Shown: positions 11,137 to 60,400, counted from the first letter of the stretch. The stretch: 64,000 bases of DNA from Planctomycetota bacterium (GCA_027619595.1 JAQCHP010000004.1:1-64000); one strand, 5' to 3'. Numbers and translations: made by a program. The notes: generated by a model not told the origin, from the letters alone.

Positions 11137-14100
11137 TTAAAGCAAATTGGCAAAAATCGCGTCCAGGGCGGAATTGCGGGCCGCCGCACGAGGTGCGGCC
11201 GACGTATTTGACCCACTGCTGCTGACGCCGCCTGCCGTGACCACTTGGGTCGATGCATTGGGAACTGGCTGCAAACCGAACGAATTCGGTGCACCCACCA
11301 GACGCACTAGTCTCGTACCATTTGCCACACCCAACAGCTGGACCAACGACGTGTCCCGCGTGGAGAGGGTACGGGTAAGGCGATCGCCGTCTGTCTCTGT
11401 GACGTTGATCGTTACCGAACTTGCATCGGCCGACAGCACGACGTCCATACTCTGGTAGGCACTCCAGAGATCGTCAAGAATTTGCCACTGCGTGCGTCCT
11501 TGGGAATCAGAAGCAAATTCGACTGGATTTCTGGGCGTCGATGCGAGGGCATACAACATGTTGAATTGTGGGACGACCCCTCCACCCCCAAAATTGTTCG
11601 ACCCCGATTGGCCTCCGGTGTTACCTGGAGTGATCGTAATGCCCCCATTTCCGTTGGACGGATTCGTCGAAAGCACCGCGCCCCCGGTCAAAAGACCGGA
11701 GCTGGTTTGCGTAACGGTATAGCTGCCCGGGTTGACCGATGCGAAATTATAGCCGCCCGTCTTATCAGTGCGTGTCGTTAGATTGACGGCGGCTCCGCTG
11801 GTCTCGGTACCGGTCAACTTGACCTCCATCCCCGACACTGCACGTTCGCCGACATCTTGAGTTCCGTTGCCGTTGGTGTCGAAGAAGATTTTTCCCGTCA
11901 CCGCAGTCGGAAGGAATGGTGCGACATTGACAGTTACCGTTCCTTGCGCAGTGTCGCCGTTTCCGTCGGCGAGCGTATAGGTGAACGTCTCGGTGCCGGT
12001 AAAATCGACGGCGGGCTTATAACGAATCGCCGTATTGTTGTTGATACGTTCGATCGTGCCCCCGTTGTTTCCTGTGGACACGGCCGAGATTGACAAAGTT
12101 TCGCCAGTGTCGGGAGCGAAGGAATCGTTGGACAAAACGTCAATCTGAATTGCATCACCATTTCGGCGCGATTGCGCCGTGTCGTTCACGGCGGTGGGAG
12201 GGTCATTCACACTCGTTACGGTGACCGTAACGGTTCCTGTTGCCGATGCTTCGCTCTGGTCGGTCACCGTGTACGTAAACGTTTCGGTGCCGAAGAAATT
12301 TGCTCGAGGCGTGTAGCGAACGCTTTGGCCGTCCGGAGCGATGCTGACCGTTCCATTCTGTGTCGGCGTCGACACGGCAGAAACTGTGCGATTACCAGAC
12401 GTCGGACCGACCGTGTCGTTCGTCAGGACATTGATTGTTGTCACAGCTGCGTCTTCCGCCACAGACGCGGTATCCGCAACTGCCGATAAGCCCTGCACGA
12501 TTTGCAGCGTGCCACTGCCAAAGGTGATTCCCTGTTCGGGAATTGCGGACGGCTGACCGTGCAAGGTGACGGTGCGATTGGCCTGCTCGGCGAAATCGGT
12601 ATCGAATTTTACATTCGAACCGATCGCGATCGCTCGAAACCTTTGGGTGAACAACAACGTCGGATCTGCTGATTGAGGCGTTGTGGTTGTGCCCCCGGTT
12701 GCACCAACTTTTCCCGTGGTAACGCTGCCTTGGACGGGCGACCCAAATGGCGTATTCACGGTGGGCAAGCCGACTGCGTCCAGTAGCGTGTCGTTGAATA
12801 GCAACTCAGCAAAAGCGGTGGCCAAGCCAGGTTGCGCTGCACCGCTGCGGAGATCGTCCACGTGAACCTGCACCGCAAAAATCGACCCGGTCCCCACCGA
12901 CGTGATCTCTTGGTTGCTGTTGTTAGGGTCGACAAACCGAACCGTGAAGGCGACTTGCTTGTCGGCGACCGTCAGAGCGACATTTTGCGATCTGACATTT
13001 CCGGCTAAGTCTGTCGCATTGACGCTAAACGAAACCGTGCCAATGTCTGCTGCGATCGGCGTCCAGCTTACGAGGCCGCTTGTGGGATTAATCGTGGCCG
13101 TTGCTGGTGCGTTGGAGAGGCTGAATACAACGCTTGCCTCATTCGGTACGTTGGCGTCATACGTAAAGGAAGTGCCGACAAACGCAGTCGTATCGGGCGT
13201 TGACGTGAATGGTTCGGGCAAGGTTCGGTCAATGTTGACGGTAAGCGGATTTGAAGCTCCGCTTGTACTGCCGTTCAACGTTTGCACGGCCGTGAAAATG
13301 ACGTCTCCAGTCAGAGCCGTGGTGTCGACGGCCGCGAACGTTACGCTCGTTCCAGCAGCCACAAGGGGGTTGCCAATGGCTGTCCCGTTCGCTCGTAATA
13401 CCACTGTGGCCCCCGACGTTACGCCGTTGACGACAAAATCGAGCGAGGTTGCATTCGTAATGTTGTCCGTTGCCGAACTTCCTGTATCGGTGGAGGATGA
13501 TAGATCCGGAGCGTCTGGGGCAACCAAAGTGACGTTGACAGTAACCGTTGCTGTGTCAGTACCACCATTCCCGTCATTGATCGTATAGGTAAAAGTTTCG
13601 TTACCCGTAAATGTCGCGTTCGGTGGCGTGTAGCGTACCTTTAGATTGCCCGGCGAGATCGACACCGTACCACCTTGCGTACCTTGCGTGACGCTGGTGA
13701 TCGTTAGAGTCTCGCCGGTGTCTGGCGCGAAGAGATCATTGCCCAATACGTCTAGTTCTTCATTCGTCTTGTCTTGTGCAACATTAAACATATCGTCGTC
13801 GGCGGTCGGCGGGTCGTTGACGTTCGCCACGTTGACGGTCACGGTGGCGACACTCGGAGTTGCAGCTCCAAAGGACAATGTATAGGTGAACGTTTCGGTC
13901 CCGAAGAAATTTGCAGCCGGAGTGTATGTAACGCTTCGCGCACCGCTATTAATGGTCACCGATCCTCCGCTGTTGGGAGTTCCGACCAGCGTAATGGTGC
14001 CCAGACCAGCCGGAAGGTCATTCGCCACGACATCGAGTGATGTGGTGGACCCTTCTGCTACATTAAACGAATCGTTGTTCGCGAGGATTCCGTCCGCGAC

Positions 14101-17100
14101 CGAAAGCTGCGCCGAACCATAAGAGATTTCGGTCACGTCCGCGGTCTTGGCCGGGTTGACAAAATTGACGACATGTAAACCTGATGTTTGCGGGTGAAGC
14201 GCCCGTGCTGTGGCAAATGTTACGACGCCCGCATTGTTAGCGATAAACCGCTGCGTGAAGACCAACATCGGGTCACTTCCCCGCGTTAGGGTCGTGGGGG
14301 TGGATCCACCCGCCTCATCGATCAGGCCAGGTTGTGTATTGGTGCCTCCGCTGATGGGAGATGCGGAAAAATTGGGGCCGATAACGAGCGGCGCGCCACT
14401 AGCTACTGATACCAAGTTGGAGTTGTAGGACATGTCCACAAAGACATTAAACAGATTATTTAATGCCACACCGTCCCGTAGGTCGTCGGCAAGTACCCGC
14501 ACTTGGAATTCAGTCCCCTTAGCGATTGACGTGATGGGACTGCCGTTCAGGTCGAGTACCTGCACCGTAAATCCAGCGGCGATATCGGCCGCTGCAACGG
14601 CAACCGTAAAGTCGTGGGAAACGAAATTGCCGGCCACATCGGTTACGCGCACCTTGAAGTTCTCGGAGGTATTGGTGGAAGTGAAACCAGGTGTCCAAGC
14701 AATGACGCCTGTCTTGGCGTTTATCGTGGCGGTGGTTGGATTTTGCGTGAATGTATAAACGTCAGTCGTGGTGTCTTCTATTGAACTCTCGACGTTATAT
14801 CCGATGTTTTGTCCCTTTTTGACCGTGGTGGGAGCAGTTGATGTGACCGTTGGTGCTACTCGGTCAATGGTGACGGTCAATTGGTGATCGAGAGTGGTTG
14901 TGTCGCCGTTGTTGGTGACTTGTGCCGTAAACACGATGTTACCCGAATTAGCGGTGGCATCATAGTTAAATACGGCTCCGTTGGGCCCCGCGACAGCAGT
15001 GCCGGCCGGCGTTCCGTCCCGTAGGAGTGCCACCGTGGAATTTTCAGGCACACCGGTGACGCGAATTTCAAGGTTCGTGGCGTTGGTAATGTTGTCAAAC
15101 TTCGAACTTCCCGAATCCGACGCTTCCCATAGATCGATTCCAGTGAATAGGACGGTCAACTCCTGACTGTCGAACGATGCTCGGTTTGTTGGAAACGCTC
15201 CGATCAATACCTTGATTTCACCAGCAAATCCGGACGGCGGTGTAACGGTCACTGTCTTGGTAGTGTCGTCGACAGCCAATGATGGGAAATTTGGCGGGGC
15301 CGAATTGATAATAGCATCGAAATCGATGGGGTCCCCTTCGACGTCAATCCCGTTCACTGGAATCACAAGGGGCGTGTCATGGGGCGCAGTAAATAAAGAC
15401 GACGAAAAATCGGTGAGGAATGGCGGGCTATTTTGCGTATCCGCTTGGACTGTCACTGTAAAGGTTTCCGATGATTTCTTCCCTTGAGCGTCGGTGACCT
15501 CGACGGTGACAGTTGTGCTGCCGGTGGCCCCTTCGGCAGCCTTGAGCATGAAGACCGCATTTTCCGTGTCATTGAAGACACTCACGTCGTCCATCGTGAC
15601 TGTGTTTACCGGCCTGTCATTTGCGCCGACGGGCGTTGTGCGAATTGCATTGCGAACGTCATTGCCTTCGACCAGGTAACCAAAGAGCGAATGGTTATAG
15701 TCGAGTGAGCGTTCGTCCCCTTCAGTTATAAAGAACTGAGAGTCGTTGGTGTCGTCGTTGGATTTTGCCATCGACAGTACACCACTCTGGTTGTGCTGCA
15801 GGTCAACATGAAATTGATCATCGAAGTCTCCCAGTGGCGATCCGCCTCCGCCGGTACCCGTGGGATCGCCTCCCTGGATGACAAAGTTACTGATAATCCG
15901 ATGAAAGATCACTCCGTTGTAGAAGTCGTCGTTTGCAAGTTGCGTAATTTGGTTCGTGACGCGTGGAACCATGTCATCGAATAGTCGAAAGACCATGTCG
16001 CCAAAACCCGCCGTGGAGATCCGCAAATTACTATTTGTTTGCGGTATCAGCGTCGGAGTTACCAGTGACGGATTGCTGGACGTGACCGTGTAGGTCAAAG
16101 GTCCGTTATTGGGGTCGTAGCCGTCGACGGCCACCATCAGCGGCGAGCCGCCGAGCACAGTTTTATTGCCAATCGGCTTAAAGGAGGGACTGTCGGTGGT
16201 GGGGATTGCGATACCGCTGGCCGTTGCGATTTCGCTCAGGCTACGCACCCCCGTCAACCGCTGTCCATTGGTGAAAATCCACGTCGGCTTCTCGGTAATA
16301 TTCAGTTCGGTGACAATTGGTTTGTCTGTTCGGTCCAAGTTCGTGACGTCGGTGAAGGTGAGATGAGTCGCTCCATCCTGGAACAGATCTTTTTGTTCCG
16401 TGGTCGCCGCATCCCAAACAGCACCGTAGAGAGCCGCTCCCCCAGCTGCCAGATTTTTGGCGAATTGCACCAGATCCTGAACGGGCGCGGGGTCAATGTT
16501 GAGTGTGACACTGCCATAGTCAATATTTGCGGCGGCAACGGCGGAGGATGCTCCCAATAGCAGCGTGTTACTGACGGGCACGTTGTCCGCGGGATCACCC
16601 GTAAACGTTAGCGAACCAGCCGCAGAAGCAGTAAATGGCAATTGGAATAGGAGGGATTCCGTCGAGCTACCTGTGGAGCTAGAGCTGATGCCACCCACTT
16701 CATTGACGATACTGCCATCAACGCTACCGCTCGTGCCATTGACATAGGTGGCGCCATGCCCAATTGTTCCTGAGGGTGTTGCCAGCGAAGTGTTAAACGT
16801 CACATCGAGGAACCCGGCAAAGACGCCCGTATCGGCCTGCGTACCGATCGACCTGACAAATCCGCGTAGCTGAAACGTGTCTCCTACGGTGACCGTTGTG
16901 ACCGGTGTGCCGGATGCGTTCGTGACCGCCAGGCGAAACTCGACGACGTCATCGGCGTCTGCCAGTGCCACAACTCCTGGGCCTTCATCACCCATAATAT
17001 TATTGGCGTCGGCACCAGAAATCGCTTGGCCAGAAACCTGGGCCATCGTCTGCACGACCGTGTTGGACACAACTGGGGCTGCTACAGAATCGGACGAAAT

Positions 17101-17319
17101 CGACACGCTTGGCGTCGTGTTGGATGCCACGATGGAGGTGGGAGACGCCACCCCCCGCCCTCCGCGGCTGAGGGCACTCAGCATGCTCGACATGACGAAC
17201 AGGTCAGATGCCAACAGCTCGCGTGCTTCCAGAGCTTCCGTTTGGAGCCGAATACACGTGTTCAATTGACTTGTCGGGCGACGACGTTTCATGATTCGCG
17301 AAGTTGGTGGGTAGCTCAT
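11137..17319 (-). CDS. Giant exported multi-domain protein: three cohesin-like modules, embedded cyclophilin, cadherin/Ig-like repeats
   Basis: A 2060-residue extracytoplasmic protein. The N-terminus carries the planctomycete signature LEARELLASD (about 30-40). Domains in order: cohesin-like module A (126-275); Ig-like segment (380-425); cyclophilin-type peptidyl-prolyl isomerase (432-582), with FHRIISNF, IQGGDPTGTG and SQFFIT intact; Ig-like repeats (600-910); cohesin-like B (916-1076); tandem cadherin-like repeats of the NDxFxxxTFTYT type (1080-1265); Ig-like (1270-1450); cohesin-like C (1457-1610); two more cadherin-like repeats (1612-1800); an SdrD/CNA-B-like domain (1807-1880, starting GKIFFDTNGNGTQDVGE); and a C-terminal domain (1925-2020) shared with the protein at 48086-51292. 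The end is ALDAIFANLL. Function is inferred as surface scaffold or adhesin. It is transcribed divergently from the BBP7 gene. Confidence 0.85.
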   Translation of the reverse strand: MSYPPTSRIMKRRRPTSQLNTCIRLQTEALEARELLASDLFVMSSMLSALSRGGRGVASPTSIVASNTTPSVSISSDSVAAPVVSNTVVQTMAQVSGQAISGADANNIMGDEGPGVVALADADDVVEFRLAVTNASGTPVTTVTVGDTFQLRGFVRSIGTQADTGVFAGFLDVTFNTSLATPSGTIGHGATYVNGTSGSVDGSIVNEVGGISSSSTGSSTESLLFQLPFTASAAGSLTFTGDPADNVPVSNTLLLGASSAVAAANIDYGSVTLNIDPAPVQDLVQFAKNLAAGGAALYGAVWDAATTEQKDLFQDGATHLTFTDVTNLDRTDKPIVTELNITEKPTWIFTNGQRLTGVRSLSEIATASGIAIPTTDSPSFKPIGNKTVLGGSPLMVAVDGYDPNNGPLTYTVTSSNPSLVTPTLIPQTNSNLRISTAGFGDMVFRLFDDMVPRVTNQITQLANDDFYNGVIFHRIISNFVIQGGDPTGTGGGGSPLGDFDDQFHVDLQHNQSGVLSMAKSNDDTNDSQFFITEGDERSLDYNHSLFGYLVEGNDVRNAIRTTPVGANDRPVNTVTMDDVSVFNDTENAVFMLKAAEGATGSTTVTVEVTDAQGKKSSETFTVTVQADTQNSPPFLTDFSSSLFTAPHDTPLVIPVNGIDVEGDPIDFDAIINSAPPNFPSLAVDDTTKTVTVTPPSGFAGEIKVLIGAFPTNRASFDSQELTVLFTGIDLWEASDSGSSKFDNITNATNLEIRVTGVPENSTVALLRDGTPAGTAVAGPNGAVFNYDATANSGNIVFTAQVTNNGDTTTLDHQLTVTIDRVAPTVTSTAPTTVKKGQNIGYNVESSIEDTTTDVYTFTQNPTTATINAKTGVIAWTPGFTSTNTSENFKVRVTDVAGNFVSHDFTVAVAAADIAAGFTVQVLDLNGSPITSIAKGTEFQVRVLADDLRDGVALNNLFNVFVDMSYNSNLVSVASGAPLVIGPNFSASPISGGTNTQPGLIDEAGGSTPTTLTRGSDPMLVFTQRFIANNAGVVTFATARALHPQTSGLHVVNFVNPAKTADVTEISYGSAQLSVADGILANNDSFNVAEGSTTSLDVVANDLPAGLGTITLVGTPNSGGSVTINSGARSVTYTPAANFFGTETFTYTLSFGAATPSVATVTVNVANVNDPPTADDDMFNVAQDKTNEELDVLGNDLFAPDTGETLTITSVTQGTQGGTVSISPGNLKVRYTPPNATFTGNETFTYTINDGNGGTDTATVTVNVTLVAPDAPDLSSSTDTGSSATDNITNATSLDFVVNGVTSGATVVLRANGTAIGNPLVAAGTSVTFAAVDTTALTGDVIFTAVQTLNGSTSGASNPLTVNIDRTLPEPFTSTPDTTAFVGTSFTYDANVPNEASVVFSLSNAPATATINPTSGLVSWTPIAADIGTVSFSVNATDLAGNVRSQNVALTVADKQVAFTVRFVDPNNSNQEITSVGTGSIFAVQVHVDDLRSGAAQPGLATAFAELLFNDTLLDAVGLPTVNTPFGSPVQGSVTTGKVGATGGTTTTPQSADPTLLFTQRFRAIAIGSNVKFDTDFAEQANRTVTLHGQPSAIPEQGITFGSGTLQIVQGLSAVADTASVAEDAAVTTINVLTNDTVGPTSGNRTVSAVSTPTQNGTVSIAPDGQSVRYTPRANFFGTETFTYTVTDQSEASATGTVTVTVTSVNDPPTAVNDTAQSRRNGDAIQIDVLSNDSFAPDTGETLSISAVSTGNNGGTIERINNNTAIRYKPAVDFTGTETFTYTLADGNGDTAQGTVTVNVAPFLPTAVTGKIFFDTNGNGTQDVGERAVSGMEVKLTGTETSGAAVNLTTRTDKTGGYNFASVNPGSYTVTQTSSGLLTGGAVLSTNPSNGNGGITITPGNTGGQSGSNNFGGGGVVPQFNMLYALASTPRNPVEFASDSQGRTQWQILDDLWSAYQSMDVVLSADASSVTINVTETDGDRLTRTLSTRDTSLVQLLGVANGTRLVRLVGAPNSFGLQPVPNASTQVVTAGGVSSSGSNTSAAPRAAARNSALDAIFANLL

Positions 17320-17878
17320 TTTCCGGTCAATTCCGTGTGAGATCCAGGTAAAACAACAAAGACAGCAAGATACTCAATTGAAGGAACGATTCTGGCGTTT
17401 TTCAATTCCGAGGTCTAATTCCACTTCACACCGTTCAAGTTGCATGGCAGAATTTGCGGCTAAAAGTAACTGGCAAAGCTGGTGAAGATAGGGGTGTCTG
17501 GCCGCAAGGCCATCAGTTCAGGCTAGTCGTACCGCCACCATTTTGCAACTTTTTCCTCCGCCATGGACTGGTTTTGCGGGGCCTTTGCGTTGCGACCCGC
17601 AAAATCGTTCTAGAGCTGCTCTTTACTTCGGCAAATGGGTTCCCGATTGCCTAGCACAAAATCTGGCTTATTGGTCCGCTTCGATTCAAAGTGCCCCCCT
17701 GATGGCACGGCAATGCTGCCCGATTGGTGTCAAGTAAATACGGTTGCTACCGCAGTGTTAACTTGGGTGGGATTTGCTTGTTGTACAGCAAGTGCCTTTT
17801 CTACTTGAAATTCACTAAGTGCCGGTCGATCTGTCTTTACGGATGTTTTCGCATTGTTTCAATAAGCGAGATATAACA
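17320..17878. other. Long divergent intergenic region
   Basis: About 559 bases lie between the giant surface protein (minus) and the BBP7 barrel gene (plus). No coding region is convincing. It contains an inverted repeat at 17572-17604 and a near-perfect 16-base palindrome CTTGTTGTACAGCAAG at 17777-17792 (one mismatched pair), about 90 bases before the BBP7 start. The length suggests long 5' leaders or regulator sites for two cell-surface genes. No clear sigma-factor promoter was recognised. Confidence 0.5.
17572..17604. repeat. Inverted repeat, 9-bp arms
   Basis: TTTTGCGGG at 17572-17580 pairs perfectly with CCCGCAAAA at 17596-17604 across a 15-base spacer. A transcript from either strand could form a hairpin with an A/U-rich base. 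It lies near the middle of the divergent region, so it might be a regulatory stem or the end of a short leader transcript. Confidence 0.45.
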
Positions 17879-19375
17879 ATGAAATGGACATATGAATTGG
17901 TAGTAATGGGGACCGCCTTCGTTCTCCTGGTAGCGAACGTTCACGGTCAGGGGCTACCGTCGAGTTCGGGTGGGTATCCGATCGACCCTGCGACCGGGAT
18001 GGTAATGCCAGTTTCCCATATGCAATCGGGCGGGTGCGACACCGGATGCGTAGGTATGGGGTGTGATGGCGGCTGTACCGGCGGCTGTACCGGCGGTTGT
18101 ACCGACCTAGGTTGTACCGACTTAGGTTGTACCGACTTAGGTTGTTCGTCCGGGGGCGAGTGCAGCGGGACGTGTGGCAGCTGTGGCGACGTGTGCGGAG
18201 GCAGCTGCGGCGGCGGACTCTTCAGGGGGCGGAGCGGCTGCCGTCCGGGGCTGTTCAGCGGAGGCGGTCTGTTTGGCGCTGGCGGGCTCTTCGGCAGCGG
18301 GTCAGGCCGGCCATCGCGTATCTGGGCCGATGGTGAATACCTTCTTTGGTGGAACAAGGAACGCAATTTGCCGGCGTTGGCGACTTCAAGTCCAATCAAT
18401 ACGCTCCCGCAGGACGCTGGCGTGCTCGGTGCGGCCGGTACTTCGATCCTGTTCGGGAATTCGCAGATCGGACAAGAATCGGATCAAGGGTACCGGTTTG
18501 GCGGTGGTCTGTGGCTTAACCAAGACCAAACTTGGGGGGTAGGCGGACGTTACTACCGACTGGATCAAGATGCAATCAACTTCGACCGCGTTTCCAACGG
18601 CGACCCGATCCTTGCCCGGCCCTTCTTTGATACGCAATCCAACGAACAGGCCTCGCTGCTCGTGGCCTTTCCGAGCCTTTATTCCGGCAATATTTCAGCT
18701 ACCGCTGCGAATCAAGTGTCCGGTGGAGATGTCTACTTGCGGGCGCTCTTGTTGTCGGGCCATGGCAACCGTCTGGACTTGATCGGTGGATACGACTACG
18801 CCAATATCGATGATTCGGTGAGCGTTTCGCACGGGGTCGTGTTCAACGATCCTGCCGGCAGGTTTCCCATCGGAACATCGCTTGTATCGAGAGATCTTTT
18901 CGACGTCGAGAACGTTTTCAACGGTGGTAGTGTCGGTTTGATGTCGGAGTCCGAAGACGGATGCGTTACTTGGCGCCTCTTGGCAAAAGTTGCCTTTGGA
19001 AACATGAATCAACGCGTCGGCATCCGTGGTACTTCGACCGCTACGTCGCCCAACGGAGCTGTAGCTGTAAATAACGCCGAAGGACTACTGGCGCTCCCGA
19101 CCAATATCGGTGACTACGAACAAGATCAATTCGCTGTGATGCCTGAAGCGGGTGTATCGGCAGGTATTAAGTTGACAAAGCAACTGCAGATGACCGTGGG
19201 ATACTCCTTCTTGTACTGGTCTCGAGTACAACTTGCGGGCGATGCCATTGATACCACCGTCAATACTTCGCAGTTCGCCGGGAACGTGATTGGAACGCCA
19301 CGCCCACAGTTCCAATTCGAAGATACGAGCTTCTGGGTCCAGGGGATAAATTTCGGCCTGAACCTGCGTTACTAA
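17879..19375 (+). CDS. BBP7-family outer-membrane beta-barrel protein with cysteine-rich repeat linker
   Basis: A predicted outer-membrane protein of about 498 residues. ATG at 17879 starts a good signal peptide ending near ANVHGQG. Residues about 50-110 are extremely glycine/cysteine rich: three GGCT units, three DLGCT units, then further Cys-Gly pairs. A glycine-rich LFSGGGLFGAGG segment precedes the domain starting RIWADGEYLLWWNKERN, the planctomycete BBP7 signature. The rest alternates beta strands and ends with VQGINFGLNLRY, an aromatic C-terminus typical of outer-membrane barrels. The cysteines could form disulfides or bind metal in the envelope. A terminator-like hairpin follows 43 bases after the stop. 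Confidence 0.85.
   Translation: MKWTYELVVMGTAFVLLVANVHGQGLPSSSGGYPIDPATGMVMPVSHMQSGGCDTGCVGMGCDGGCTGGCTGGCTDLGCTDLGCTDLGCSSGGECSGTCGSCGDVCGGSCGGGLFRGRSGCRPGLFSGGGLFGAGGLFGSGSGRPSRIWADGEYLLWWNKERNLPALATSSPINTLPQDAGVLGAAGTSILFGNSQIGQESDQGYRFGGGLWLNQDQTWGVGGRYYRLDQDAINFDRVSNGDPILARPFFDTQSNEQASLLVAFPSLYSGNISATAANQVSGGDVYLRALLLSGHGNRLDLIGGYDYANIDDSVSVSHGVVFNDPAGRFPIGTSLVSRDLFDVENVFNGGSVGLMSESEDGCVTWRLLAKVAFGNMNQRVGIRGTSTATSPNGAVAVNNAEGLLALPTNIGDYEQDQFAVMPEAGVSAGIKLTKQLQMTVGYSFLYWSRVQLAGDAIDTTVNTSQFAGNVIGTPRPQFQFEDTSFWVQGINFGLNLRY
18068..18145 (+). repeat. In-frame tandem repeats encoding GGCT and DLGCT units
   Basis: Three 12-base units (consensus GGCGGCTGTACC) at 18068-18103 are followed by three 15-base units (consensus GACTTAGGTTGTACC, the last truncated) at 18104-18145. 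They encode the cysteine-rich linker of the BBP7 protein. Near-identity of the units at DNA level indicates recent expansion by slippage, so copy number may vary between strains. Confidence 0.85.
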
Positions 19376-48085: not shown

Positions 48086-51000
48086 CTAAGCCTGGAAGGC
48101 CGCATCGACCGCCACTGCATTTAACGGATTTGGCGGCAGTCCAAAGTCGCTCGGGTTCCCTACGAGCCGGAGCATCAGCCCCTCGGGACGAGTCCCCAAG
48201 ATTTGGACGCGAGGGTTATTCAGCACAGTAATGTCGGAAGTAAACGTCTGTCCCAGCGTATCACGAACGGTAACCGTCAGAACGGTGCGAGCGCTGTTCA
48301 ACTGAGTTGTGACACTCGCGTAGTCTCGCCAGGGAGTGCTGCCGCACCACCAATGCTGCGCCCCCGTGTTATCTAAGGCTACCAGTAGTTCACTCACCAC
48401 CGGACGCGAGATCAACGCTCCGTTGCGGGCAAAGTCCGGCAGCAGTCCCCATTCACCAAAATTGACACCCGTTACGTTGGTACCCGGTGGCAAATCAAAA
48501 GATATCGCATCATTGATCGGTGACAGCTGTCCACCGAACGTGTCTTTACCGTCGATCATGAACAACGGCTGATCTTCGATCACGGTGTACGCACCGCGCG
48601 TTACACCATCAAACCTGTAGGAACCGTTTCCAGCCGTAGTCGTCGTACGAAATACGGACTGACCAGAAGCGGTGGTACCTTGCAATGTAATGAGGATTCC
48701 TGCGATGGGCGCTTCCGTTAACCCCCGTATGCCATCATTGTTCACGTCGGTATAGACGTGCCCCGCGATCGAGCTAGGAGTGAGATCGTCGACGTTGAGC
48801 GATACGGTGGCTGAGTTTGAGGCTACACCATTGCCAACCGCACGGTACGTGAAGCTGTCTACCCCAACAAACGAGGCCCGGGGTGTGTACACAAAAGAAC
48901 CATCTGCATTTAGTGTTAGTATTCCATTGGCCGGCTGTGATACCAACTGAGCGGTAAGTGGATCGCTATCGAGATCGGTATCGTTCTTGAGGACACCATC
49001 GGCGGCTGAGACAGTCAGGGAAACGCCTCCCACGGTATACGAGTCATTCACCGATGTCGGTGGGTCATCTACAGATGCCACGTTAATCGTCACGGTAGCA
49101 GTATTCGAATTAACTGTTCCATCATTGGCCGTGTAGGTAAATGTATCGATTCCGTGAAAATTCGCGTTCGCCAGATACGAGAACGAACCGTCAGCATTTA
49201 GCGTCAGCGTACCATTTTGGACATTCTGTACAACCGTTGCGGTTAACGGCAAACCTCCGGGATTCGTGTCATTTGCCAATACACCTTGGCCAACGGCGAT
49301 GTTGAGTTGCACATCTTCTTGAGCGTCGTAGGTATCATTGACGGCTGTCGGAACAGCACCTTGAAAGACATTGATCGACACAGGAACGAAGGACATTGCA
49401 CTGATCGGTTCTGCTGTCGGCTTCGCGAACAGAAGAACGTCATTGGCGGGTGTAAGATCACGAGGATCGCCGGCGAACACGGCGATGCCTGCCGCCAACG
49501 CTTGCACTGGGACCCGCATCAATAACTTAGGGCCTCCACCAAGTTCCTGCAGTCCTGCCAACGCACCCGCCTCGTTGACAATGCCGTCCGTAGCAATGTC
49601 GGCCTTTCGGCCGTTTAGATAGTCGCTCCCAAACGTGGGTGCGCCGCTGACATCAATCAGTCGAGTGTCATAGAAAATATCTAGGAATGCCTGAAAGACG
49701 CCCGTCGTTACGGTGCGAACATCTTCTACTTGGACCTGCACGAAAAAGGTGCCACCGACAGGTATCGAAGTGATCGCGGTCCCAGCGGCATTCACAGTCG
49801 ATAAGGTGAATACGACCGTTGTTGAACTGGGAGATGGGACGTTGATTCGCACAACGGTATCGCTCGATGCTCCCGTTCCATCACTGGCGGCATAGGTAAA
49901 TGAGTCCAATCCAGAGAACCCACTATTGGGGGTGTACGTGAACGAGCCATTGGCACTCAGTGAAAGCAAACCATTTATCGGTTGCGTCTTTACGATTGCC
50001 GTCAGCGTACCACCGTCAGGAGCGCTATCGTTTCGCAGCAGGCCATTTGCTTCGTCGACGGTTAGCGTCGATCCTCCGGTGAATTGATAGGCGTCGAGTC
50101 CAGCTATTGGTAGTGCATTGATAAGAATTGTCACGGTCGCCGTATTCGAATCAGATCCTCCATCAACCACGTGGTAGGTGAACGTGTCGGTACCTGAGAA
50201 GCCGGCGACTGGCGTGTAGGCAAACGAACCGTCCGAATTCAATTGCAAGTCGCCATTACTTGTGGTTACATCAAGGGCGGCCGTTATCACACCAGCGCCC
50301 AAGTCATTCGATAGCACTCCGGGCGCCGCGATATTGAGCGTAGTTCCGGCATTTACCGCAAAATTATCGTCTTGGGCGAACGGGACCACGTTGATTCTGA
50401 CAATCGCAGACATCGATGAACCGCCATTGGCGTCGCGAGCAACATAACGAAAGGAATCGGTACCTCGAAAATTGGCGTTGGGTGTATAAAGAAAGGAACC
50501 ATCGGGGTTGAATAATAACGTGCCATTTTGTGTTGATCCGGGCGGCCCGACCAGGCGCTCGGCCGTCAGCGTGCCGCCATCGGCATCGGTATCATTGGCC
50601 AAAACTCCCTGTGGTGGGGCGACGGTCAATTGCACTCCGGTACGTGTTGAATAGGTGTCATCGACTGATTGTGGGCGCGCATTGACATTCAGCGAGACCG
50701 TGATGGGGCTCGAGTTAATACCGCCATTGTTGACTGCGTAGGTAAACGAATCGGCACCAGAAAAATTGGTGGCGGGCGTATACGTGAAACCTCCATTGGC
50801 CGCTAAGGCTAATGTTCCATGTGTCGGATCGGTCAATTTGACCGCCGTAATCGTTTCCGTGCCGTCACGATCATTTGCCAATACACCGTTCGCTTCGTTC
50901 ACATTCAGCGGCGTGTTTTGCTGCGCCGTGTAGCTGTCAGCTGTGGGCACCGAATGCGGAAGCGGTTGGGGATTCCTGGAATTCTCATTTAATTGATTGA

Positions 51001-51292
51001 TTACGAGCAACGCGTCAATCGCCGAAATGTAATAGTCGTTATTAACGTCGTAGAAGGTCGACGTAGGCCCAGTATCGCCGCTTGACGATAAACTCACCGC
51101 GCCATTGCGGTTGATTTCGTTAATCACAAGCAACGCATCAATCGCGCTCACATACCCGTCTCGATTGACGTCGACGGGTGTGGTCACGTTGTGCCAAGGA
51201 TTCATATCGGCGGCCAGCAGGCAGCGTTGCTCCAGTGATTCGAGCAAGTGAGCATTTCGGCTTACAGACCGACGTAAAAGAGATTGACGCAT
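48086..51292 (-). CDS. Exported dockerin protein with cadherin-like repeats and one cohesin-like module
   Basis: A 1068-residue surface protein with the planctomycete signature LEQRCLLAAD (about 20-29). Two dockerin-type calcium loops follow: DVNRDGYVSAIDALLVINEI (41-60) and DVNNDYYISAIDALLVINQL (82-101). Four cadherin-like repeats of about 95 residues cover 110-486, each with VLANDxD and FTYTPNxxFxGxDSFTY-type cores. A cohesin-like module is at 490-645, two more repeats at 648-834, and an SdrD/CNA-B-like domain starts GHVYTDVNNDGIRGLTE (840-930). The C-terminal domain, with HWWCGSTPWRDY and MLRLVGNPSDFGL, is shared with the protein at 11137-17319. It follows the giant gene by 168 bases on the same strand. 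Role inferred: cell-surface assembly. Confidence 0.85.
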   Translation of the reverse strand: MRQSLLRRSVSRNAHLLESLEQRCLLAADMNPWHNVTTPVDVNRDGYVSAIDALLVINEINRNGAVSLSSSGDTGPTSTFYDVNNDYYISAIDALLVINQLNENSRNPQPLPHSVPTADSYTAQQNTPLNVNEANGVLANDRDGTETITAVKLTDPTHGTLALAANGGFTYTPATNFSGADSFTYAVNNGGINSSPITVSLNVNARPQSVDDTYSTRTGVQLTVAPPQGVLANDTDADGGTLTAERLVGPPGSTQNGTLLFNPDGSFLYTPNANFRGTDSFRYVARDANGGSSMSAIVRINVVPFAQDDNFAVNAGTTLNIAAPGVLSNDLGAGVITAALDVTTSNGDLQLNSDGSFAYTPVAGFSGTDTFTYHVVDGGSDSNTATVTILINALPIAGLDAYQFTGGSTLTVDEANGLLRNDSAPDGGTLTAIVKTQPINGLLSLSANGSFTYTPNSGFSGLDSFTYAASDGTGASSDTVVRINVPSPSSTTVVFTLSTVNAAGTAITSIPVGGTFFVQVQVEDVRTVTTGVFQAFLDIFYDTRLIDVSGAPTFGSDYLNGRKADIATDGIVNEAGALAGLQELGGGPKLLMRVPVQALAAGIAVFAGDPRDLTPANDVLLFAKPTAEPISAMSFVPVSINVFQGAVPTAVNDTYDAQEDVQLNIAVGQGVLANDTNPGGLPLTATVVQNVQNGTLTLNADGSFSYLANANFHGIDTFTYTANDGTVNSNTATVTINVASVDDPPTSVNDSYTVGGVSLTVSAADGVLKNDTDLDSDPLTAQLVSQPANGILTLNADGSFVYTPRASFVGVDSFTYRAVGNGVASNSATVSLNVDDLTPSSIAGHVYTDVNNDGIRGLTEAPIAGILITLQGTTASGQSVFRTTTTAGNGSYRFDGVTRGAYTVIEDQPLFMIDGKDTFGGQLSPINDAISFDLPPGTNVTGVNFGEWGLLPDFARNGALISRPVVSELLVALDNTGAQHWWCGSTPWRDYASVTTQLNSARTVLTVTVRDTLGQTFTSDITVLNNPRVQILGTRPEGLMLRLVGNPSDFGLPPNPLNAVAVDAAFQA

Positions 51293-51460: not shown

Positions 51461-54400
51461 CTACTTTTTCCTGCGTTGTCGACCGGCCACGTCTTGTGCA
51501 AGCTCTGTAAATAGTTCGTCCTGCACAGACCAAGCCGCCCGCGCTGCCATTTGGTGGTCGTAATCCGATTTTTTGGCTCGGCCAGGACTCGCATCCGCCG
51601 GTACGACAGAAGGCAAACTTCTTTGCGCAAACGCCGCTTGTGGAACGGCCGCGGTACTTTCTGTCGAATCGCCGGCAAACAGCGTATCGACTGCTGTGGC
51701 ACGTTGGGATTTTGCTGCCGTGGCGGTGGTGGATGCGTTAGGCCCAGGAATCGCGGCAGCCACCGGTCCTGGGATAGCATTGGCGGTGGGCTGTAGGCCG
51801 CTTCGTTGCAACGCACTCACTCGGTTCAATTCATTGATGACCAGCAAAGCATCGATCGCCGTGACAAACCCATCACCATTAACGTCTAGGAACCCCGGCG
51901 GAACACTCGGTGGTTGCGTAATGGTGGGTAGCTCGCCGGTAGTCGGGTTCGACACAGTCGGTCGGTTCAATTCGTTGATGACCAACAACGCATCAATGGC
52001 CGTGACAAACGTGTCATTGTTGACGTCTAGGCGATTCACCGCGTTTTGCCAAGCTGCATCGGGACCGATCCGAAGCTGGTAGTCTTCCACTTCCCCGTCA
52101 TTTGCGGCTCCGGTCGGCGACAGGCCACCGGCCGTGCTGAACCGGAACCGAGCGAACGTCAGGCCTGTTGAGGCGTCGGCCGGAATGCCAACGTTGAGCA
52201 CGTTCGGACCCGACACCAATGCCTCACGGTTGAAGACCTGTTCACCCGAGTCGGCCCAATCTCCGTCGCGGTTGTAGTCGATCCACCCCTCGAGAAAACC
52301 GCCAACCGATGCGGTGATCGTGAAGGTCGCCGACGCTCCGGGAAGTATCTCGGAAAAGGTCACACCGTCGTCCACATCTCCGTCCGCTGCGCTCGTTGGC
52401 TGCCCGTCCACATCAGCGTCGACACTCACACCCAGGAACACGGTCGGCACAATGGTGTGTCGCGCGCCATCGCGGCTTAGCAACGTCGGATAACTCGGGT
52501 CGGGTGCGTCACCGTAGTCGGTAGGAACTTCAAACTCCACTGTGAACGTCGTAGCACCTGAATCCTGATTTGCGAGCAGTGAGTGTCCCGCGATGTCCTT
52601 AATCGCCTCGTCGCCCGAATTTGCCAGGGTAATCACGTACGTATGCCCGGCTTCCCAAACTCCTGCGAGTGGTGTCAAACGAATTGTTCGATTGGTGGAA
52701 TCGTAGCTGAAACTATAGTCGACACCATCAACGAGAGTCACGCCATCGCGTCGGATCGTGACCGCACCCGACGTGACGGTGCTATTGTTCACTCCCGACC
52801 CACGATTGACGTCAGCCAAATCGCTAAGGTCATTGAGCCGAATCTCAAATCGGGACAACAGTGTCGTATCGAGCCGCACCTGCGTAAACGCGCTGTTCTT
52901 GTCTGTAATTCCATCGTTATCAAGCGGCGTAAGCAGACTGGCTCGCGGACCAGTGATGTCGGCGCGATCGAGAGCACCTCGATCCTTAAAGACATTGTCC
53001 CCCACCCCGGAAGGTGGCTCTACCAATGGATCATCGACCCGCAATTGGCCCAGCAGATCATGGCTCGGCGCGAGTATAGGCGACAAACCGATTCCTACAT
53101 TTTCTTTGAACAGCCCCAAATCTCGGCGCTCCTCCAAGGAGTCAATCGAACTATCAATCAGACTCGATGCAGCAGCCGGATAAAACACGCCATTTGCGAA
53201 ATCGGTGAATGGTCTGGCATCTACCGGCAAGACAACCGTGAAATCTGTCGCGTTGATGTTAACCGCGTTGCGCACATTTCCTTGAAATGTCGACCCGGTG
53301 ACAACGGTCGTTTGCGACGTATTGTCAGAGACAACACCACGCTTAAAGTTCGCCACCACGTTATTCATCAGCGTGGGGCTGATGCTGTGTTCCACAAAGA
53401 TGCCGATATCATTAAAATCTTCAGCGTTGTACTCGGTATTATTCTCCAAGACTCCGCCGTTACCAACAATTGTGTTGTTCAATACTCTTGCGAACGGCAC
53501 GGCAGCTGACTGCACTGGTCTGGCGAAAATATCAAACCAATTACCTAAATTACTCACAATTCTAGTTGCGCCAGTCACGTACAATTCATCGAGGCTACTC
53601 CGATACACGGTGACATCTAAGTTCGAACTCTGAATGGCCCGCATGAGTGCATCAGCAGTATCGGTACGATTAGAGCACGCCGCCGCAGGGTGGACACATC
53701 CCGTCATAAACCAAGTGACAGAAATCGTACCGGCCGGCAACGTTCTGGCACCATCCCGATTAAATTCAAATCGCTGCGTTAATCCGTTATGGTCGGTCAC
53801 ATCAAATATGAAAGACAGTTCGTCCCAAACTTCGTTAATTGCAAGAGGGCTTGGTGGATCACCGGCTACAGGGGCCACGATCGAATATCCCCCCTCATCT
53901 CCCGATAGATGAATGCCACCGCGTCCACCATAGGCAACAACATTATTGGCAATTACTACCCCAGTAGACAATCGCTCCACATTGTCCTTGACCAGCTGCC
54001 GAGGACTTCCGTAGGGCGATGCGTAGTCGCTGTGGGAGAATTGCGAATGGTCCTGATTCGGTGTGATGGGTAGTCCCGAAAGACCATTCTCACCCGGAAG
54101 TCCACGTGGTGGTGCTTCGCTGACAATGCCGTAGTTGGCAGAATTCCGAATATTGTTGGAGGCGATAACAACTTGCCCCTGGTCCCGAGATAGGTTTCCC
54201 GACCCAAACGCGTCCACAACAGCGAATGGTATGCCGTTAGGTGCTGTATCACGACCTACAAATGCGTTGCCGAAGAGATTAACACGATTGGTCGTCCCGT
54301 CGATTCCGGAAGTTCGCCCGTCCGAAGTCGCGGCAATGATACCTTGCAACAATCTGCGTTCAGTGACATTTTGTACTGCATCTCGGATCAACTCGGCCAT

Positions 54401-57400: not shown

Positions 57401-60400
57401 GTTGGGGTCCGTTCTAAAACGGTAGACCATCCCGCTATCAAACTCAAATTCGACAGTCGCGGGAGTCCCTCCCGCTTTCGCAATGACGACTTTGGTGCCA
57501 TCGACAATATCTGGCCCACGAGGTACCGCCATCATCGAATTGGCTCGCCCGCCCGATGTTGTCCTCAGGATTCCTAACTCAATAATATCTGTGCCGGCGT
57601 GCAACCCCCTGGTGGGGAGGAGATCGTCCTCGGCGCGAACTCCTCCCAGCGCCTTACCTGTCTCGGAATCAAACCGATACATGATATTGGTATCTAGCAG
57701 ATCCGAACGCCACCCAACCGCTAGCCCAGTCTGCCGATCGGCAGCACTCGCATTGAATACAAGTGCATCGAACTGAATCCCCCCCTTGCCTTCTTCAACT
57801 TCCTGTGCGCGTACAGCCGGTGGCGGCTCCGGATCGTCCGGATTTGGCTCGAAGTTTGGATCCTCTACGTAGGTCAGAATCTGATCATCGTGCGGATCAC
57901 CGCCCGGATCTTCCGGCACCAGCAGCCTGCCGTTTTCTGGGCTTATATTGAAATAGTTTCCGACCGACTCATCGATCGGCTGTGGACCTCCGTCCGGGGC
58001 CATCGTTCGAAATGCGTGAATGCGTTGGGGCCGGTCATTTGACGCTCGATCGAATTGCGGATTGTCTCGCAGAGAAATGTCGCCGACAGAAAACGGAAAC
58101 GAACCCACAACTGTCTCTGTGACGCCCAGAAATGGATCGATCGTGACGATCTCTGTGCCGGGCTCACTGGGCGATCCGGTCTTTCGGCTGCCAAAGAGCA
58201 CCAGGTCGCCCAGGGAATAGGGGACCAAGCTAGGAGTACCTAGAAAAGTGTCAGAATTAGGTATCGATGAAACGGGGTCATCCACTAAACGTGTCGCTGC
58301 GGGAGCGGGCGACATACGAATGAATGGATTCGCCGGAAGAATGTCGGTAAATTGCGACATCTCTAACGGCTCCGTTTGCGCGGTGGCAACCCGCAGTAGG
58401 TAGAAGCCAGTTTCGAGACGAACCGGCCCCAAGAAAGGATCGAGTTTGCCGCCAGAGCCACGAGATAGGTCTGTTAGATCGACACCAAAACCGGGACGTG
58501 GCTGATCATCGGGATCGTAAGCTTGACGGCTATCGAAAACCAAACTACCACGCCCCACGTCACTAAGATTACCAATTCCATCGCTAAATGAGGCTCGATA
58601 TACCTGGAGACTCGAGTCCACACTCGCAAATCCGTCTGCATAGTCTACGTCGAATGTCACATCCACGGACCGTGGAATTCCAAGACCACCGTTTGTCGAC
58701 TCTCTTCCGTTTGTCGCGGTTTGGTCGTAGTTAACCTCAAATAAGTACCAGTCGACGTCCCCCGGCCCTTCCAAGCCCTCACGAAATGAGTCAAAAGGAG
58801 ATTCGGGAAAGAAGCGATCCGAATCGGACAGGCGTCCGGCGATCGAAATTGTACCACGGTCGGTCGTCAACAGATTACCGACGTATTGGGCATCGGCAAA
58901 CGCACGGTCATAGATTCTTGGAGTGCACACTCCAACCAGAATCGAAGTAGTCTGACGAATACAAACGCGATTATTTTCGGACTCGCCAGCCAACTGTGAA
59001 TTTAGCGTTGTATCTTCAGCTACCTCCCCGCTAAGTGGGGTATGCGATGGTAAACCGCGCAATCGAATCGCGTCGGTGGCATAACCTATGTCAGCAAACT
59101 GGACGGTGGAGCCTGCATGTTCGTCGAGTTCTCTGATGCGGATCTGTAAATTGTACGCACCACTCGTAACTCCCGGACCATTCTCGGTACTACCGGCACT
59201 GCGTACTCGCACATGGTAGGTCAACTGACCCGTTGCGCTCCCGGGAAGTACAACCCGCATACCCGCGTCAAAGATATTCTGGCTGAAGTAGTCGACGCTT
59301 CCATAGACGGACCGCTGCAGGCCAGCAGCAAAGACACCCGCCTTTACGAATTCAGGAAACGACTGCATCTCGGTCATGGAGTTATTGCTGCGAGCTAGCA
59401 CTTCGCCATCCGAGCTAATCAGTTCGATAACGGAATCAAACGCTACGCTCGATCGGTCAACATCAAACCAGACTTCCGTCCCTGGGAAAGCGTTAAAGCT
59501 ATAGACATCGACGTCGGTGGGGGAATGGGTCTGTCCATAGACCTCGAAACCGAGCCGCAGATTTTCATCCCCTGCGAATTCCCGCGAAGCGAGTGAACCA
59601 AGGTGCTGAGCGGTCGCTGGTGTGTTATTTTCGATCGTCGGCCCAGTAACAACGACTCCTGCGACACCGAGAGACTCTTGTTCCGTCACTGCCGCGACAT
59701 TCCGATCGTGACTAGCGGTTTCCAAAATCACTCCACGCCAATCACTAGGAATCGCTCCCCCAACGACGTTGTAACCAATTAGGTCCATCGCCTGCCGGTC
59801 TTGTTCCGTTATATTGAGTTCTCGACCCTCCAGCGGATCGATGGCTCCCACGCTCATGGGCACCTGCACGCCGAAGTCACTAAATCTCGCGTCCCAGTGG
59901 TCGAATCCGCCGTCCGCATCAGTTACGGGCACGTCTCCCAGTTCTAATCCAACCAAACCGAGCGCTGACGGATCGTAAAAACCACCGTCGTACAACACCT
60001 TCTCAACGCTCAGATCGAGAATTCGAGCCGCGCCGGTGAAGTCGGTCTTGCCGGTCCCCTTTTCCAGTTTAAACAGGTCAAGTGGCGCGGGGGACACCGC
60101 TCGAGGCAGCAAAGGATCCGCCAGCATCGCCGCCACTTCGAGGGCGGAACCCTGGAATCCCAAAATATGACCGATCCCATGGAGAACAACACCGACTAGG
60201 TCATAGCGTCCAGGCAAAATTCCATCGGTACGATCCAGGTCGTAAAACACCGGCGTGCCGTCCGCCTCCGTTCCCAGGGGATTGAAATTAATATTTACAG
60301 TTCCATCGATGGTTTCTGTAGGATCAAACGCAGACGGCCTAGCTGGTAGCAAACTAGGTGCAATTCCAAGGGCCAACGCATTAGCTCGAGCGAAGGTCAT

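Follow-up and report, generated by a model that had tools for sequence, protein, structure and literature searches.

Dockerin domains are numerous in planctomycete genomes, yet in many of those surveyed here Pfam detects hardly any cohesins, or none at all, that could be their partners. A 64,000-nucleotide stretch from a Planctomycetota bacterium (GCA_027619595.1 JAQCHP010000004.1:1-64000; hereafter the window) encodes a 2060-residue protein (P1) with three related modules (M1 to M3), a 1068-residue protein (P2) with a fourth (M4) and a dockerin, and a giant protein (P3) with a dockerin near its C-terminus. A sequence-only reading had taken the modules for cohesins and proposed a cohesin–dockerin scaffold that also involves cyclophilin and protease-like domains. 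We find that the modules are divergent cohesins by predicted fold and by descent, and consider it likely that together with one class of dockerins in the same genome, the SAIDALLVIN class, they make up a non-cellulosomal extracellular assembly.

Predicted fold and descent of the modules

All four modules translate in frame at the positions originally proposed, and they are homologous, with pairwise alignment scores 9.5 to 27.5 standard deviations over composition-matched shuffles. The motif said to unite them was exact in part; M1 lacks the D-x-R, M3 reads GATGG at the E-A-G-G turn, and M4 departs from the pattern with EAGA and LLMRVPVQA. M4 was the sole module modelled directly. With an alignment of 36 sequences (M4 and 35 relatives) as input, AlphaFold2 (AF2) returned a model with a predicted local distance difference test score (pLDDT) of 96.7 and a predicted template modelling score of 0.90, while a first model built from the four window modules alone reached a pLDDT of only 54.2 and was discarded. 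The best Foldseek matches of the M4 model in the PDB were cohesins (E 3.6e-5, probability 1.00). VIA-align likewise placed cohesins in rows 1 to 33, the best being a Clostridium perfringens cohesin (2vo8; Z 15.5, root-mean-square deviation 2.1 over 130 residues), against Z 12.3 for the best non-cohesin. The model thus has the nine-stranded cohesin jelly roll that had been proposed rather than a fold unrelated to cohesins, and M1 to M3 are assigned it as homologues of M4.

The sequence evidence is fainter. M4 scored best of the window modules against PF00963 (E 0.0075, 16.9 bits), for which the Pfam gathering score is 24.1 bits, a detection threshold and no biological criterion; run over the whole genome, PF00963 gave no match at E≤1. 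A hidden Markov model (HMM) of the module family scored 27–33 bits on four planctomycete proteins that PF00963 also detects (L070, L072, L075, and L085), one of which, L085, is itself a cyclophilin–cohesin protein; bits are quoted here since the E-values stem from a small database. Profile comparison with hhalign linked the modules to a cohesin alignment (P=1.1e-4), and the Big_9 control gave P=0.3, on which ground a chance resemblance to Big_9 repeats was discarded. Because a search of PDB chain sequences with module profiles returned nothing at E≤10, homology to cohesins rests on the fold and the intermediates. The cohesin assignment holds at the level of the modelled fold, with a link in sequence that is thin but present.

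Dockerins and their distribution among relatives

The dockerin pairs noticed in P2 and P3 proved real, scoring 49.6 and 57 bits respectively against a Pfam cut-off of 22.9, with both F-hand repeats present. In P2 these are two near-identical DVN.D...SAIDALLVIN repeats, and an alignment of SAIDALLVIN dockerins shows the DxNxD..D calcium-loop pattern kept in both repeats. The 5.18 Mb assembly of this genome holds six modules in total, two of them outside the window (table 1), and three of its four module-bearing proteins also carry a dockerin, directly adjacent to the module in two. PF00404 matches the genome 37 times. The SAIDALLVIN-class profile finds only five places, namely P2, P3, two subtilase genes on C108 and C250, and a Big_13-repeat protein on C19, and Pfam detects no glycoside hydrolase domain, as a cellulosome would require, in these five proteins. 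The idea that all 37 matches form one system was rejected, the other approximately 32 dockerin-like F-hand domains (L091–L098, eight of which were read) being of another class with a DGADLAxVYxxWG or similar motif, several with PEP-CTERM-like tails. The C250 subtilase gene, which encodes a subtilase–SdrD–GEVED–Big_9–cohesin–dockerin order, is spread over three frames (L007:3068-7287, C250:67068-71287) and is either a recent pseudogene or affected by sequencing errors.

The profile search of planctomycete genomes suggested by the sequence-only reading recovered modules in 27 of 40 genomes, this one included. A query made from a six-sequence alignment of closer module members matched 23 loci on named GTDB contigs, nearly all labelled Planctomycetota or Pirellulales. 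One locus (L042:7108-7764), a 219-residue protein with a single module and a VPLPA-type C-terminal anchor, lies on a contig labelled Thermodesulfobacteriota and represents either spread beyond planctomycetes or a binning error. Modules and SAIDALLVIN dockerins occur together in 25 of the 40 genomes, modules only in two, dockerins only in none, and neither in 13 (Fisher p=8.7e-9 with kinship ignored; Spearman 0.85). Three genomes of the same family lack both. The surveyed genomes total 100 modules against 317 dockerins of this class.

Architecture and gene order are also conserved. Many genera have proteins in which a cohesin follows a cyclophilin, mostly without a dockerin, and relatives have many adjacent cohesin–dockerin or dockerin–cohesin pairs. 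Genome G004 encodes homologues of P1 (38.6% over 1111 residues, with two cohesins and a cyclophilin), P2 (35% over 1133 residues), and P3 (41–51%). The window and G004 each have a giant dockerin gene of P3 type immediately before a dockerin–cohesin gene of P2 type, while in G003, G022, and G024 one dockerin gene with an HExxH motif stands between them. This neighborhood, adjacent or one gene apart, was found in five genera, among loci chosen from the dockerin match list, a selection that is not free of bias.

Among twenty module-free dockerin proteins scanned for other domains were a trypsin, two matrixins, a cyclophilin, a CAP-domain protein, a haem peroxidase, a vanadium-chloroperoxidase-like protein and, in one relative, a rhamnogalacturonan lyase (PL11). 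The vanadium-chloroperoxidase-like, animal-type haem peroxidase, and lyase genes are at L111:2106-4181, L119:2292-4733, and L120:227-3466, respectively. The loci L110:5628-8420, L113:2146-3996, L115:2540-5155, and L116:3891-6440 encode members of one conserved family of dockerin proteins, which share the motif AHETGH(M/I)FWxxDEY (AHELGH in one member) and in three of these four loci lie between a giant dockerin gene and a dockerin–cohesin gene. Pfam matches nothing in the N-terminal domain of these proteins, which are probably zinc peptidases.

A candidate assembly and its alternatives

P1 and P2 consist for the most part of Big_9/cadherin-type repeats, and both also have an SdrD_B domain. The cyclophilin domain of P1 sits between M1 and M2 and retains the FHR..QGGD and SQFFIT motifs; no dockerin was found in P1 with Pfam or the dockerin HMM. 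P2 begins with its dockerin, followed by its one module. An N-terminal LExRxLLA motif common to most of these proteins (LEARELLA in P1) resembles Pfam's planctomycete extracellular motif, which argues for a common export route out of the cell.

Table 1. Positions of the features discussed, in window coordinates unless a contig is given
Feature	Position	Strand	Basis and remarks
P1, 2060-residue open reading frame (ORF)	11137..17319	-	ORF, Pfam, module HMM, dockerin HMM; candidate scaffold
M1, cohesin-fold module, P1 residues 126-275	16495..16944	-	Homology to M2-M4, family HMM; fold inferred from M4 model
Cyclophilin-type peptidyl-prolyl isomerase domain, P1 residues 433-580	15580..16023	-	PF00160 E=4.7e-36
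M2, cohesin-fold module, P1 residues 916-1076	14092..14574	-	Homology, family HMM
M3, cohesin-fold module, P1 residues 1457-1610	12490..12951	-	Homology, family HMM
P2, 1068-residue ORF	48086..51292	-	ORF, Pfam, module HMM; candidate adaptor
Type I dockerin of P2	50987..51172	-	PF00404 E=4.6e-13
M4, cohesin-fold module, P2 residues 490-645	49358..49825	-	Modelled module; AF2, Foldseek, VIA-align; PF00963 16.9 bits, below cut-off
P3, giant dockerin protein, >4173 residues	51461..64000	-	ORF continues past window end; first Met C250:64897
Type I dockerin of P3, close to C-terminus	51824..52027	-	PF00404 E=2.2e-15
GEVED domain of P3, immediately ahead of dockerin	52073..52294	-	PF20009 E=1.1e-15
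NF038122 metalloprotease-like domain of P3	59768..60682	-	NCBIfam E=1.5e-35
Extra module, 1840-residue subtilase with P-domain	C108:5729-6181		Within ~15 residues upstream of dockerin
Extra module, subtilase-like gene	C250:70433-70867		~6.4 kb past window end; within ~15 residues upstream of dockerin

Short C-terminal tails are shared by module and dockerin proteins (P1, P2, P3, L007, L008, and relatives). The tail [AV]DxxhA was present in 16 of 43 such proteins against 7 of 297 background ORFs, and hAxDV in 10 of 43 against 1 of 297, both patterns having been picked after viewing the set; they may be a sorting or anchoring signal not described before. Next to P1, in divergent orientation, lies a gene for a beta-barrel porin of the BBP7 family (window 17819-19375, + strand). 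A second BBP7 porin, beside P3, was considered and rejected, as that neighbor gives no Pfam match.

We suggest that P1, which has three cohesins and a cyclophilin but lacks a dockerin, would serve as the scaffold, that P2 and the two subtilase proteins, each with a cohesin and a dockerin, could act as adaptors or self-linking units, and that P3 and the Big_13-repeat protein, with a dockerin only, would be clients. The near-symmetric, calcium-loaded dockerin repeats would bind one face of the cohesin jelly roll, and the assembly would lie outside the cell and have a degradative role. The genomic evidence fits such a module–dockerin pairing: the scaffold with a cyclophilin envisaged in the sequence-only reading gains from the recurrent cyclophilin–cohesin proteins, the co-occurrence, the gene adjacency, and the dockerin-bearing enzymes, while binding itself is presumed. 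One point of that proposal needs correcting for the giant protein: P3 reads HGIGH at its active-site motif (window 60167-60181, - strand) with a GGG codon at the catalytic Glu, where four relatives retain HEIGH. A second, more N-terminal copy of the motif reads RQIGR (window 63440-63454, - strand). The metalloprotease-like domain is probably inactive in this genome, unless the assembly is in error.

A putative binding face can be placed on strand b3 of the modules, where positions 42, 44, and 46 show strong conservation (A/S, Y/F, and D, respectively) and alternate with hydrophobic core positions, as expected for such a face. In the C. thermocellum cohesin CtCoh2, N37 and D39 contact the dockerin Ser/Thr motif (PMC5772552), and in the hhalign register these residues match module positions 42 and 44. 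By our reading of the alignment, the equivalent positions in the repeats of SAIDALLVIN dockerins are occupied by Ala-Ile rather than Ser-Thr. Both sides fit an interface that would be conserved yet different from the characterized one.

Several observations weigh against the proposed assembly. None of the window modules scores high enough for the Pfam cohesin model; A/S and Y/F at the N37 and D39 equivalents mean that the known contact chemistry does not transfer; the co-occurrence ignores phylogeny and is partly trivial, some dockerins sharing a chain with a module; two genomes (G008 and G035) have modules without SAIDALLVIN dockerins at the threshold used; no cell-surface anchor was identified in P1; and the protease-like site of P3 is degenerate in this genome. 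In one rival reading the cohesin fold has been kept and dockerin binding lost, the modules being spacers, adhesive or glycan-binding units in long immunoglobulin-repeat surface proteins and the dockerins binding something else. A common fold does not show function, the modules lie among Big_9/cadherin repeats, adhesin domains such as SspB and PrgB also exceed Z 11, and the contact-equivalent residues are unlike those of characterized cohesins. We nevertheless regard this as quite unlikely, given that SAIDALLVIN dockerins occur in no surveyed genome lacking modules, outnumber them about 3:1, and are encoded in gene clusters with them, and that the three b3 positions are among the most conserved, as for a binding face.

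In a second rival reading, chains that combine a cohesin with a dockerin join head to tail and so build up a polymer or lattice at the surface, in which enzymes are minor passengers. The dockerins carried by most module proteins of this genome, and the many adjacent pairs in relatives, speak for such self-assembly. As the main role it is nonetheless unlikely, since at 317 to 100 most dockerins must lie in module-free chains, several of them enzymes, P1 and the conserved cyclophilin–cohesin proteins mostly lack a dockerin, and an adjacent pair is as likely to form an intramolecular cap as a polymer. Very unlikely is a role of the dockerins solely as calcium-triggered folding or sorting tails, with co-occurrence due to common descent of the surface-protein repertoires. 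The approximately 32 other F-hand domains, several of them in proteins with PEP-CTERM-like tails, could conceivably have such a role without binding; these are, however, a different class from the five SAIDALLVIN dockerins, whose two repeats have near-identical putative recognition residues and which track the modules across genera down to their joint absence.

Extending the cohesin–dockerin assembly to relatives, a tentative picture, to which we give slightly less than even odds, is an extracellular "plug-board" of the Pirellulales. A few divergent cohesins per cell, missed by Pfam and often fused to cyclophilin, would organize giant proteins and enzymes (proteases, peroxidases, and lyases) that carry dockerins and number in the tens, partly via self-linking cohesin–dockerin chains, and the fused cyclophilin may assist the folding or remodelling of docked clients. 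The divergent cohesin family, since it tracks dockerins across genera, is a candidate for the missing partner, and small purified domains would suffice to test this. Should the two bind, a large environmental order would use cohesin–dockerin organization for proteases, peroxidases, and lyases, and new orthogonal protein-coupling pairs would become available.

Comparison with known systems

The proposed system shares with the cellulosomal type I pair (CipA of C. thermocellum and CipC of C. cellulolyticum) the cohesin jelly roll, a duplicated near-symmetric F-hand dockerin, and the division between a multi-cohesin protein and single-dockerin clients. It differs in sequence (<21% identity in structural alignments), in contact residues, and in the lack of a recognized glycoside hydrolase on the five SAIDALLVIN proteins. 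The closest solved folds are the non-cellulosomal cohesins of C. perfringens glycoside hydrolases (2vo8, 2w1n, and 2jh2; Z 14.8–15.5), which are likewise embedded in large secreted multidomain proteins, although identity is 13–16% and the host proteins are different. Tandem-95/Big_9 cadherin-like surface proteins contain the same repeat that fills P1 and P2 as a spacer, and by profile comparison (P=0.3) these repeats are unrelated to the modules. A literature search combining cohesin, dockerin, and cyclophilin found nothing relevant.

The nearest precedent is the peptide-degrading "planctosome" that Andrei et al. (2019; PMC6461901) proposed on similar grounds for the Nemodlikiaceae of the class Phycisphaerae. 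Both systems have planctomycete cohesin and dockerin modules without cellulases, an adaptor with both modules (here P2), P-domains (here in the C108 subtilase), and a link to peptidases. Dockerin-bearing peptidases are represented in the present genome by the C108 subtilase and the frame-broken C250 subtilase, the P3 domain being degenerate. The planctosome anchor combines lamin-tail, P-domain, TSP3, and cohesin; we found no lamin-tail or TSP3 match in P1–P3 or the C108, C250, and C19 proteins, the part of the genome searched. Where the planctosome has M12B and M14 peptidases, the genome studied here has subtilases, a giant protein resembling a metalloprotease, and a protein that joins three cohesins to a cyclophilin, and its cohesins fall below the Pfam cut-off. 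What is new relative to the planctosome is thus a Pirellulales cohesin family, missed by Pfam and often fused to cyclophilin, in another class and with different proteins.

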